A stretch of DNA of 64,000 bases, from the NCBI GenBank assembly GCA_016742215.1, contig JACVCC010000004.1, positions 124,001 to 188,000 of the forward strand. The letters are read 5' to 3'. A program made the translations under genes and the position numbers. The stretch is from Brevundimonas sp. Its GTDB lineage: Bacteria; Pseudomonadota; Alphaproteobacteria; Caulobacterales; Caulobacteraceae. This document shows, piece after piece, positions 14,853-48,949 of the stretch (within the stretch, counting starts at the first letter, position 1; every line of letters starts with the position of its first letter). The notes beneath the pieces are model-generated. The model made no database searches. It was not told the DNA's origin and saw nothing but the letters and a program-made list of their open reading frames with translations.

Positions 14853-14988
14853 TTCCGCTCATCCCCGCGAAGGCGGGGACCCAGTGCGGTCGCGTGACCC
14901 TCGCACAAGCTATCCGAAGCACGCTGCGAAGCGCTTCTGCTGAACCTCTGCATGCACTGGATCCCCGCCTTCGCGGGGATGAGCGGAA
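14853..14988. repeat. MITE-like element: 35-bp terminal inverted repeats around 66 non-coding bases
   Basis: The arms 14853-14887 and 14954-14988 are inverted copies of each other with one mismatch. They begin TTCCGCTCATCCC and end GGGACCCAGTGC, and each arm contains its own small hairpin (CCCCGC-GAAG-GCGGGG). The interior has no reading frame. The arm sequence belongs to the same family as the ends of the GIY-YIG element at 47413-47817. It lies between two convergent genes, and no clear target duplication was seen. Confidence 0.85.
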
Positions 14989-46150: not shown

Positions 46151-46271
46151 ACCCCTCCACCCCCGGCTTCGCCGCCGGTCCCCCTCCCCGCTACGCGGAG
46201 AGGTGAACGGCACGCGCTCACCTCTCCAGCGAAGCTGGGGAGGGGGACCATGCGGAGCATGGTGGAGGGGT
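46151..46271. repeat. Long nested palindrome, family A, between gyrB and recF
   Basis: Three nested inverted arm pairs: ACCCCTCCAC(C) / GGTGGAGGGGT outside (46151 and 46261), GGTCCCCCTCCCC / GGGGAGGGGGACC (46177, 46237) and GAGAGGTGA / TCACCTCTC inside (46198, 46218). The outer arm ends at the recF stop codon. A second copy with diverged arms is at 55967-56094. Confidence 0.88.
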
Positions 46272-47395
46272 CACCCGAACCCGCCGGCTTCCACCTTCAC
46301 GAACTGCGCCCGCCCCTGCAGGGGCGCGAACAGGTCGGCTTCGGTGCCGGTCATGAAGGCCTGCAGGCCCAGGGCCTCGATCTCGTCGAACAGGGCGGCG
46401 CGGCGGGCAGTGTCGAGGTGGGCGGGGGCCTCATCGAGGAGGAGGATCGGAGCCGCGCTCTGGCCCGAAAGGCGGGTGATCTGGGCGAGGATCAGGTTCA
46501 GGACCAGGGCCTTCTGCTCGCCGGAGGAGCCTTCGGCGGCCGGGCGGTTCTTCTCGCGATGCAGGGCGGTCAGGTCCGAGCGGTGCGGCCCGAACAGGGA
46601 CCGGCCGGCAGCGGCGTCGCGCGGGCGGGATCGGGCCATGCCTTCGCGGATCGCCTGCGCGATACCGTCGGCCGCGGCGCCGTCCGCCGCCATGGCCTCG
46701 GCCTCGCCGGTCAGGCCGAGATCGGCCTGGGGGAAGGGGCGGTCGTTGCGGGCGTCGATGGCCGACTGGAGCGTCTTCAGGGCGGCGGCGCGGGCCATCG
46801 CCGCGGCGGCGCCGGCCTCGCCCAACCGGACCTCGAGCGCGTCCAGCCAGATCGGATCGGCCTCTCGCCCCTCCGCGCCGTCGACCAGCAGACGCAGGCG
46901 TTCACGCAGGGCTTTCTCATAGGCCGAGACCGCGGCCGCATGGTCGGGATCGGCGGCGAAGACCAGACGGTCGAAGAATTTCAGCCGCTCGGCGCGGGCA
47001 TCGGAGAACAGGCGATCCTGCTCGGGCGTGGCCCAGACGGGGCGCAGATGGTCCAGCAGACGGCCGGGCTGGGCGGTTTCGCCGTCGATGCGGACGATGC
47101 GGCGCGCGGCGCCGGGGGTCTGCACGCCCGTACCCAGCCGGACCTCGTCGCCGTCTCCGGTCAGGACCGCCGCGACGGCCCAGGCGCGACCGCCGCTCTC
47201 GCCCGGTTCGCGCCGACCCATCTCGGGCGCCGAGGCGCCGCGCAGGCCCTTGCCGGGCGTGAACAGGCTGAGCGCCTCCAGCAGATTGGTCTTCCCCGCC
47301 CCGTTCGGCCCGTGCAGCACCACCGACCCCGCCTCGATCGGCAGGGTCGCGCTCGCATAAGAGCGGAAGTCGGTGAGGGTGAGGGTGGTGATCAA
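46271..47395 (-). CDS. recF: DNA replication and repair protein RecF
   Basis: 374 residues. Walker [14 protein letters not shown], start motif [16 protein letters not shown]-type signature [13 protein letters not shown] and Walker [14 protein letters not shown] near the C-terminus, all as in RecF. It loads RecA at single-strand gaps with RecOR. In the usual minus-strand order dnaA-dnaN-recF-gyrB, but separated from dnaN by an inserted GIY-YIG element. Confidence 0.94.
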
Positions 47396-47412: not shown

Positions 47413-47817
47413 AATTCCGCTCTTCCCGGCGAAAGCCGGGACCCAGTTCTTTTGAGCGGACTCAGACGGCGCGCCCGAAGCTCTCGAAGAGATCAAGCCA
47501 ACCGGGGTTGGACTTCTCGATGAGTTCCAGTTTCCAGACGCGCTTCCATTCCTTGATCTGGCGCTCGCGAACGAAGGCCGCATGCCGTGTTGGATGCGTT
47601 TCGTACCAGACCAGACGCGCGACCCCGTATCTTGCGGTGAAGCCATCTCTCGTCTTCGCGCGATGCTGAATGACGCGGTCAATCAGGTTGTCCGTCGAGC
47701 CAGTGTAGAGCGTGCCGTTCCGCCCACTGGCGACGATGTAGGTGAAGAACGCCAACTCAAACCTCCGCGTCATAACGAAAGTACTGGGTCCCGGCTTTCG
47801 CCGGGATGAGCGGAATT
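47413..47817. mobile_element. Inverted-repeat-bounded GIY-YIG nuclease element
   Basis: Arms 47413-47452 and 47778-47817 are 40-bp inverted copies with two mismatches. Each starts AATTCCGCTC and contains a hairpin with a GAAA loop (CCCGGC-GAAA-GCCGGG) and GGGACCCAGT. They enclose one GIY-YIG gene on the minus strand that fills almost the whole interior. It is inserted between dnaN and recF. The arms are the same family as those of the empty element at 14853-14988. No flanking direct repeat is obvious. Confidence 0.8.
47462..47773 (-). CDS. GIY-YIG nuclease-domain protein
   Basis: 103 residues, a single GIY-YIG domain (COG2827/UPF0213 type). The motif pair is FTYIVAS (Y12-I-V) and LYTGSTD (Y23-T-G), followed by the catalytic-type Arg 33 (LIDRVIQHR), His 37 and Glu 70 in FVRERQIKEWKR, so the nuclease residues appear intact. 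Too short for UvrC and without any other domain. The ATG is only four bases from the right inverted-repeat arm and has no clear ribosome site. Cleaves DNA in related proteins; here it may act on the hairpins of the flanking repeats, an inference. Confidence 0.88.
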   Translation of the reverse strand: MTRRFELAFFTYIVASGRNGTLYTGSTDNLIDRVIQHRAKTRDGFTARYGVARLVWYETHPTRHAAFVRERQIKEWKRVWKLELIEKSNPGWLDLFESFGRAV

Positions 47818-47830
47818 CAAAGCCCCGGCA

Positions 47831-48949
47831 TCACACCCGCAGCGGCATCAGCACGTACTGGACGCCCGGGTCGCCCGGATCGAGGACCAAGGTCGGCGAC
47901 GCCGGGTCGGCGAATTTGAAGCTGGCGGTCTCGCCGGTGATCTGGCCGGCGACGTCCAGCAGGTAGCGGGCATTGAAGCCGATCTCGAAGGGCTCTTCCG
48001 AATAGCCGATCTCGACTTCCTCGACGCCCTGCCCGGCTTCCATGTTGCGGACGGTCAGGGTCACGCGGTCCAGTTCGAAGGCCAGTTTCACCGAGCGGCT
48101 CTTCTCGGCCGAGATGGTGGCGACGCGGTCGACGGCCGAGGCGAAGACGGTGTTGTCGATGTCGGCCTGCTTGTCGTTCCCCTTCGGGATGACGCGCATG
48201 TAGTCCGGGAAGGCGCCGTCGATGACCTTGGAGGTCAGGCTGGCCTGACCGAACTCGAAGCGGATCTTCTGCGGCGAGACCATGACCTCGACCATGCCGG
48301 CGCCGTCGTCGAGCAGGCGGCGGACCTGATCAACGGTCTTGCGCGGCACGATGACGCCCGGGCCGCCGGCGGCGCCCTCGGGAGCCGGGGTCTCGGCGAG
48401 GGCCAGACGGTGACCGTCGGTGGCTACGGCGCGCAGCAGCGGAATGCCGGCCTCGGCCACCGTGTGCAGGTACAGGCCGTTCAGATAGTAGCGGGTCTCT
48501 TCGGTCGAGACGGCGAACCGGGTCTTGTCGATCAGACGGGCCAGGTCTTCCTTGGCCAGGGTGAAACGGGCGCCCGAGGTGTCAGTCGACATGACCGGGA
48601 AGTCGCCGGCCGGCAGGACCGGCAGGTTGAACTTCGACCGACCGGCCTGGACCAGCAGGCGGGGATCGTCGCCCGAATAGCTGAGCGAGACCTCGGCACC
48701 GTCCGGCAGCTTGCGCACGATCTCATACAGGGTGTGGGCCGGGGCGGTGATCTGGCCCTCGACGTTCACCGTGGCCTCGGCCTCGTCGACCATCTCCATG
48801 TCGAGGTCGGTGGCGGCGAAGCTCAGGCGGTCGCGGCCCGCCGACAGCAGGACGTTGGACAGGATCGGAATGGTGTTCCGCCGCTCGACGACGCTCTGGA
48901 CGTGCCCGAGGGCCTTCAGAAGCGCGGATCGTTCGATGGTCAGTTGCAT
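47831..48949 (-). CDS. dnaN: DNA polymerase III beta subunit (sliding clamp)
   Basis: 372 residues, the usual length. It opens MQLTIERSALLKALGHVQSV, has VVERRNTIPILSNVLL, and three repeated clamp domains; it ends QYVLMPLRV, the conserved clamp C-terminus. Ring-shaped processivity factor. Follows dnaA on the same strand with a 233-bp gap that holds a heptamer-arm repeat. Confidence 0.97.
   Translation of the reverse strand: MQLTIERSALLKALGHVQSVVERRNTIPILSNVLLSAGRDRLSFAATDLDMEMVDEAEATVNVEGQITAPAHTLYEIVRKLPDGAEVSLSYSGDDPRLLVQAGRSKFNLPVLPAGDFPVMSTDTSGARFTLAKEDLARLIDKTRFAVSTEETRYYLNGLYLHTVAEAGIPLLRAVATDGHRLALAETPAPEGAAGGPGVIVPRKTVDQVRRLLDDGAGMVEVMVSPQKIRFEFGQASLTSKVIDGAFPDYMRVIPKGNDKQADIDNTVFASAVDRVATISAEKSRSVKLAFELDRVTLTVRNMEAGQGVEEVEIGYSEEPFEIGFNARYLLDVAGQITGETASFKFADPASPTLVLDPGDPGVQYVLMPLRV

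Follow-up and report, generated by a model that had tools for sequence, protein, structure and literature searches.

The DNA analysed here, referred to as the window, is a stretch of 64,000 nucleotides from Brevundimonas sp. Between recF and dnaN, both named from their translations, it carries a small gene for a GIY-YIG nuclease that is closed on either side by inverted arms. The features considered below are:

46271–47395, minus strand: recF, frame intact, neighbour downstream in transcription order
47413–47452, plus strand: arm 1, a CGTC-type REP unit plus subterminal GTTCTTT, on the 3' (downstream) side of the GIY-YIG gene
47419–47445: REP unit in arm 1, GCTCTTCCCGGCGAAAGCCGGGACCCA
47462–47773, minus strand: GIY-YIG nuclease gene P0001, 103 codons, open reading frame with a PF01541 match
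47778–47817, minus strand: arm 2, a CGTC-type REP unit plus subterminal GTACTTT, on the 5' (upstream) side of the GIY-YIG gene
47785–47811: REP unit in arm 2, GCTCATCCCGGCGAAAGCCGGGACCCA
47831–48949, minus strand: dnaN, frame intact, neighbour upstream in transcription order
14857–14984, no strand assigned: gene-less, MITE-like HH dimer from the REP family of the arms (stem of CCCCGC type, spacer of 74 nt; G000:C7:138859-138982)

A first-pass annotation made from the letters of the window had described two inverted 40-bp arms around an intact GIY-YIG gene, a GAAA-loop hairpin in each arm, a start codon four bases off one of them, and an insertion that separates dnaN and recF with neither being broken. 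This description was borne out throughout. The arms are 40 nt each, complementary at 38 of 40 positions (95%, two mismatches), and 325 nt lie between them. The ATG of the minus-strand frame is at 47773, and both neighbouring frames are intact. Folded as single-stranded DNA, each arm gave a 7-bp stem with a GAAA loop (-9.0 and -9.3 kcal/mol; z of -2.4 and -3.9). A search for CCCGGCGAAAGCCGGG with up to two mismatches allowed gave two matches in the window, both exact, where 0.32 were expected; 2 of 100 shuffles reached two.

The protein matches the Pfam GIY-YIG family PF01541 over residues 9–80 (E 2e-13, 50.9 bits versus a cut-off of 22.6), while an NCBIfam search with P0001 assigned no family. 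The core of GIY-YIG enzymes is built around two tyrosines, an arginine and a glutamate. Among 22 aligned sequences G25, R33 and E70 were invariant and Y12 and Y23 nearly so, such that P0001 has the two-tyrosine core with the conserved arginine and glutamate of the superfamily, both in sequence and in its predicted fold (mean pLDDT 88.5). The best fold matches were Slx1 (Z 7.0) and UPF0213 (6.5), which are tied, followed by I-TevI (5.4) and UvrC (5.3), all below 8 and hence modest. UPF0213 entries also provided the sole sequence matches of known structure (BH0048 and EF2693, E 1.7e-6 and 0.0021). Slx1 is a eukaryotic nuclease that works with Slx4. Judged from this model, P0001 might cut hairpins or branches in a structure-specific manner. 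Purifying selection acts on the gene: for its homologues in the genus the median dN/dS was 0.20 (351 of 561 pairs from 34 loci, which include probable duplicates).

The assembly (2.0 Mb, 70% complete) holds two small GIY-YIG genes and one of UvrC length. The second small gene lies upstream of a gene that, from its translation, we take to be rsmE, and is likewise bounded by inverted arms of the same kind. Aligned with each other, the two copies show 70.8% identity along 411 nt; the alignment begins 3 nt outside the outer edge of one REP unit and ends 10 nt beyond that of the other. The nearest named copies at the dnaN-recF site were found in B. intermedia, B. albigilva and another Brevundimonas.

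The arms and the GIY-YIG clade that accompanies them

CGTC-tagged REPs were defined by their tag, an 8-bp stem starting with AT, a 4-base loop and a CCA tail, and occur predominantly as HH dimers with the tag outside (Di Nocera, De Gregorio and Rocco 2013, PMC3733652). They are widespread short repeats of five phyla, and their families CGTC-1 to -4 include dRS3 of Neisseria as well as RPE-4 and RPE-6 of Rickettsia. Table 1 of that paper enters a minus under 'association to TPAse genes', and the sections of it used here report no dedicated enzyme. By sequence, the window arms are REPs of this already described superfamily: they share its tag, AT-start stem, loop, tail and occurrence as HH dimers. 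In particular, the arms carry an unpaired end tag (CGTC, or TGTC/CCTC), a stem of 8–9 bp with AT in the first two positions, a loop of 4–5 bases and the CCA tail. In the genus the tag is mostly GCTC, a further variant, and the outermost pair of the arms is often A-C; elsewhere CGTC or TGTC prevail as tags. For 32 distinct arms, chosen by a finder that itself requires pairing, the consensus was CGTCATnCCGGCGAAAGCCGGnATCCA, with 96.9% of the stem cells paired, changes on both sides at 6 of 8 pairs and none of 500 shuffles equalling this. The arms are also repeated in the genomes, mainly as HH dimers. One arm pattern gave 9 matches in the genome of the window (reversed control 0) and matches in 87 of 131 genomes of the genus (control 0 in all 131). 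The background of the REP finder was 4 matches per 1.04 Mb of shuffled sequence at a score of 13 and none at scores of at least 14.

The first-pass annotation knew of no established description of the arrangement and did not recognise the arms as members of this known family; what differs from the published account, as far as the sections used here go, is the enzyme partner, which is new to that family. In searches of the open-licence PMC literature, none of the titles listed joined GIY-YIG to REPs or dRS3.

The check that had been proposed was a count of how often arm-like repeats accompany GIY-YIG genes. Such a link is present, strong and specific to one clade, termed A1. CGTC REPs were found within 250 bp of the gene at 84 of 127 A1 loci, at none of 28 loci of a second clade (A2, see below) and at none of 24 other GIY-YIG loci, many of them presumably UPF0213-like; Fisher tests on the cross table of clade (A1, A2, other) and repeat gave p of 9e-12 and 3e-20. 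Within the genus, REPs flanked 47 of 58 A1 loci on both sides and 7 on a single side; the remaining 4 had none. Two of these four have divergent inverted repeats (L017, L022) and two are cut by the contig end on one side (L023, L026). The 58 loci include the window itself (L131), one locus present twice on the same contig (L004 = L122) and two probable duplicates (L005/L124, L006/L121), which also enter the dN/dS set. For the phylum we used 69 A1 loci, the 29 best and 40 picked for spread over families, of which 21 had a REP on both sides, 9 on one side and 39 none; several of these 39 show other palindromes and some nothing. An inverted-repeat test that is blind to sequence was positive at 49 of the 69 loci versus 4 of 30 other GIY-YIG loci. 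Beside these 30 loci we found no CGTC REP. That GIY-YIG genes in general are associated with CGTC REPs is ruled out by the comparison sets (0/30, 0/28 and 0/24). We regard it as practically certain that CGTC REPs are strongly associated with this GIY-YIG clade.

REPs are common in intergenic DNA and adjoin many genes there, such that the GIY-YIG gene might merely be one of them. Several results make this coincidence extremely improbable. Across the 58 loci REPs were 123 times as dense in the 250 bp next to the gene as at distances of more than 500 bp, the units being mostly inverted with the tag outside, and none of 52 comparison GIY-YIG loci had a CGTC REP. Furthermore, among the matches listed for genomes G001–G024, the three HH pairs (up to 1 kb) with arms 338–361 nt apart all hold the gene, as read by eye; one pair with arms 240 nt apart holds nested palindromes instead. 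Chance as the source of the arms or of the association is rejected by the window shuffles, the finder background and the local enrichment.

The second clade was found from the four inverted-repeat positives among the 30 other GIY-YIG loci. Clade A2 (GYT..RRPV..ERRLKGWSRAKKEALI; L222, L230, L235, L236, L246, L248, L270-L293) is flanked by another palindrome family, TCCTGAG..TCGAAGGA, called type 2 here. This repeat was near the gene at 22 of 28 A2 loci, 1 of 127 A1 loci and 1 of 24 other GIY-YIG loci. The 28 loci contain five discovery cases, so named because the motif was first spotted there by eye (L222, L235, L236, L248, L270), and omit L230 and L246 (same genome as L270) and the weaker matches L294-L299. 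In a separate count over 25 A2 loci, which includes L294 and one discovery case, L270, the motif lay within 300 bp on at least one side in 20 and on both sides in 11, and the inverted-repeat test was positive in 15.

The arrangement of gene and repeats is not uniform. At some loci (L033, L037, L069, L071, L096, L098, and in Azospirillum) the REPs are one-sided, or HH dimers adjoin the gene on one or both sides in place of a single pair around it. From 35 records of plasmid matches, four named loci were used. In Azospirillum lipoferum (L351, AZO_p3 254806-256493) sufB and sufC are separated by the GIY-YIG gene, which has one HH dimer to its left and another to its right; one unit of the former was read by eye. 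On pSymB of Sinorhizobium meliloti, the GIY-YIG gene has arms of a CGTCATCCTCGGGCTTGACCCGAGGATCCA type. In Neisseria gonorrhoeae (L350, NZ_CP119140.1 1881587-1883244) the gene lies amid a cluster of 13 CGTC units of dRS3 type, of which the nearest are reversed, with the tag towards the gene. This last record of 2.17 Mb is classed as a plasmid yet is chromosome-sized, and its GIY-YIG gene is unannotated in that collection. The Planktothrix plasmid locus showed only a weak inverted repeat of another type.

The arm-to-arm unit and its sites

Two-armed loci were compared in 498 pairs spanning the gene, 349 of which have unrelated flanks. In the latter the arms are where the similarity breaks off, at their edge or within them (95th percentiles of +9 and +12 nt beyond the unit edge; pairs in which it continued for over 60 nt beyond an arm do not enter these offsets). 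In 118 of the 349 the two ends lay between -30 and +25 nt from the unit edge. Terminal inverted repeats thus bound the homology at unrelated sites. Since the similarity stops at the arms, the arm-to-arm unit of about 410 bp looks like what moves, and very probably it moves as one. The two arms of an element are also matched to each other: left and right stem-loops were identical in 28 of 58 elements, compared to a mean of 3.0 and a maximum of 10 for shuffled partners (2000 shuffles). Arm and protein distances were correlated (Mantel r 0.63, p 2e-4), for which common descent is a confounder that could explain it.

The dnaN-recF gap was surveyed in 90 of 122 matched genomes (the 30 best and 60 picked), where arms were recognised by a fuzzy match to one arm sequence. 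It ranged from 14 to more than 2000 nt in length and appeared in full, remnant, arm-only and empty states; it is a general insertion spot. The first-pass annotation had suggested looking for empty sites in relatives and had named, as the finding that would speak against it, a gene present between dnaN and recF in all relatives with no repeats. The survey gave a different picture. Only 12 gaps hold the gene, all with at least two arm matches (7 on both sides, 5 on one side), and most gaps (78) have no gene, 75 of them no arm either. The one-sided loci are L033, L037, L071, L096 and L098. In L033 the other arm is present but interrupted, as judged by eye; its left arm has about 25 extra nt in the hairpin loop. 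The three gene-free gaps with an arm, also read by eye, comprise one arm beside a decayed gene end, one gene-less pair and one single long palindrome. The last (L079, gap positions 1-91) reads CCGCTCATCCCGGCGAAAGCCGGGATGAGCAG, like two outer arm halves joined, and from its sequence looks like an excision or deletion scar, possibly formed through the shared GCCGGG. The gaps of other relatives (e.g. L035, L057, L059, L101, L110) are often filled by an inverted repeat of another kind, CGAGTGGCGAGTGACGAG.. / ..CTCGCCACTCGCCACT, or by other sequence.

At the rsmE site 30 loci were read. The copy in the genome of the window is full, while L325 and L329 have an empty gap of 16 nt after the same upstream gene, and the unit of L326 has lost most of the gene from between its arms. 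Beside the REP units of the full copy 17 and 18 nt are left, compared to the 16 nt of the empty gap; a target-site duplication is not clear by eye. In L330, L335 and L338 a more distant GIY-YIG match (49-59% identity) lies upstream of rsmE in opposite orientation, with no arm detected by the finder. Palindromes of GATCCTCGGGTCAAGCCCGAGGATGAC or CCGGGATGAC type adjoin this match, as seen by eye. Here the gap may have been taken by another subtype.

These sites bear on the possibility that the gene is a free-standing homing endonuclease, which would cut CGTC REPs or adjoining sites and be copied in by allelic repair, the REPs being targets and not co-travellers. GIY-YIG homing endonucleases such as I-TevI and its free-standing phage relatives have the same catalytic fold, to which P0001 is related, and are likewise selfish-looking genes in short intergenic gaps. 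The same gaps, between dnaN and recF and upstream of rsmE, are occupied repeatedly in several species (coordinates compared by eye), and at some loci the gene stands beside or between ready-made REP dimers. Unlike such enzymes, the window gene has no visible intron and is closed by REP hairpins, and its 103 residues leave little room for a separate DNA-binding domain. Homing is further opposed by homology that can run from arm to arm between unrelated sites with the arms included, by the matching of left and right arms within an element, and by the two clean empty rsmE sites, which carry no REP. Taken together we consider homing improbable.

Short gene-less copies with the same ends exist in related genomes as well, namely the HH dimers and L326. 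The 17 HH dimers that we read have spacers of 69-75 nt. Most of them have the arm and the subterminal GTnCTTT(C/G)G in common with gene-bearing units, while the spacers otherwise differ; the two HH dimers in the genome of the window have diverged from this motif. Ten of 34 dimer ends resembled the subterminal sequence of a gene-bearing unit better than all 100 shuffles did, and 24 did not. On this resemblance the HH dimers can be seen as MITE-like short forms of the gene-bearing unit.

Which enzyme may move the repeats

In a sample of 349 genomes of the phylum, at least two arm matches were found in 43 of 87 genomes with a strong A1 gene (E below 1e-15, a cut set by the analyst) versus 31 of 262 without (p 2.5e-12, kinship ignored). 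In the genus, 20 of 131 genomes are without the gene, two of them having only a weak match; arm matches were absent in 12 of these 20 compared to 32 of 111 gene-bearing genomes (p 0.0098, kinship ignored). The converse also occurs: 38 of the 87 gene-bearing phylum genomes gave no match to the single arm pattern searched for, in part owing to the existence of further arm flavours. Furthermore, 11 of the 34 phylum-sample genomes with at least 10 arm matches lack a strong A1 gene. Seven of these 11 have only GIY-YIG matches of UvrC length, one has none and three have a small GIY-YIG match. G166, which is 99% complete, has 160 arm matches and just one GIY-YIG match, of UvrC length. REP families may outlive their enzyme. 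Four genomes (G166, G182, G284, G293) with 48 to 160 CGTC arm matches and only UvrC-length GIY-YIG matches would represent either orphan REP families or the work of another mobiliser. In the arm-rich genome G156 (1.5 Mb) a 195-kb sample contained 39 REP units, and neither a GIY-YIG gene nor a +/- pair with 130-1500 bp between its units; one GIY-YIG gene lies elsewhere in that genome.

One may therefore ask whether the GIY-YIG gene is cargo, carried along between CGTC REPs that owe their movement to another enzyme such as a RAYT or another IS200-type transposase. The arm-rich genomes that lack a GIY-YIG clade gene agree with this, and so does the precedent of the GTAG REPs, which are held to be moved by RAYTs (PMC3733652, in the sections used here). 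The RAYT domain Y1_Tnp (PF01797) was found in only 4 of 131 genus genomes, arm matches in 87 and the GIY-YIG clade in 111 (113 at E of at most 0.001, two of them weak); in the genome of the window, at its 70% completeness, the search for PF01797 gave no match. A RAYT is therefore unlikely as the mobiliser in this genus, and we reject it as the general one there today; a lost or unrelated mobiliser would still be compatible with these counts. A passenger would also not be expected to come in two clades that each keep their own repeat, nor does purifying selection on the gene favour this role. Overall we think it unlikely that the gene is cargo.

Alternatively, the nuclease could serve the host, by processing or clearing REP hairpins or cruciforms or by being regulated through flanking RNA hairpins, and move nothing. 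This would suit a Slx1-like fold, which fits branch processing, the purifying selection on the gene, and the statement that REPs are often transcribed and adjoin genes (PMC3733652, sections used here). Patchy presence, varying sites and up to nine matches in one genome (G387) look mobile, though, as do the matched arms and the MITE-like dimers, and CGTC REPs are not clustered beside other GIY-YIG genes. We consider a host-serving role of this kind improbable.

A proposed GIY-YIG counterpart of REP/RAYT systems

The reading that we favour, and hold to be reasonably likely, is a GIY-YIG counterpart of REP/RAYT: a mobile unit of about 410 bp whose nuclease would be the enzyme dedicated to CGTC REPs. 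The first-pass annotation had proposed such a counterpart. Its genomic side is well supported by the clade-specific association, while binding, cutting or moving of the arms by the nuclease is what we infer from it. The likeness to the GTAG REP/RAYT systems (REPtrons, REPINs) lies in inverted REP hairpins on either side of a small gene that encodes a DNA-cutting enzyme, in the many gene-less HH dimers of the same REP and in a REP family matched to an enzyme clade. The window element differs in that its enzyme is a GIY-YIG nuclease, whereas a RAYT is a Y1 HUH transposase, and in that its REPs are CGTC-tagged and not GTAG; it is hence not a Y1 HUH transposase gene with GTAG REPs, as a RAYT/REPtron would be.

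In the mechanism we propose, the mobile unit would consist of the small GIY-YIG gene and, at either end, a CGTC-tagged REP, the two REPs being inverted and pointing their tags outwards. In cruciform DNA, or in DNA that is single-stranded as on the lagging strand, the REPs would form protruding hairpins, and the GIY-YIG protein would cut these; Slx1, a structure-specific nuclease, is among the best fold matches of this protein. That the nuclease acts on the arms, by binding and cutting them, seems likely to us. GIY-YIG enzymes hydrolyse DNA with no covalent intermediate and cannot rejoin ends. Host functions would therefore be needed, and movement would proceed via hairpin cutting and copying by host repair: repair or template switching with another REP-ended copy could duplicate the unit, with or without its gene, into small intergenic gaps. 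Gene-less HH dimers would be short forms carried along in trans. Spread by cutting and host repair is the least certain part of the proposal, and we give it an even chance.

More broadly, and more tentatively, the two clades could belong to a class of bacterial mobile DNA that has not been described before, with palindromic repeats spread by GIY-YIG nucleases and not by enzymes of the DDE, HUH, tyrosine or serine type. It would comprise at least two clades, each tied to its own repeat superfamily (CGTC REPs; TCCTGAG..TCGAAGGA). Together these clades could account for a large share of the palindromic repeats interspersed in the DNA of Pseudomonadota, dRS3 of Neisseria among them. We regard this as possible but lean slightly against it.

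The mover of CGTC REPs was left open by the paper that defined them, as far as its sections used here go (PMC3733652). From the comparisons above, this GIY-YIG family is a candidate for the enzyme that spreads them, and a clade-specific nuclease partner is a direct, testable answer. If this is true, REP systems would have arisen with two unrelated nuclease folds, and a candidate substrate would be available for many 'GIY-YIG nuclease family proteins' that are as yet uncharacterised.
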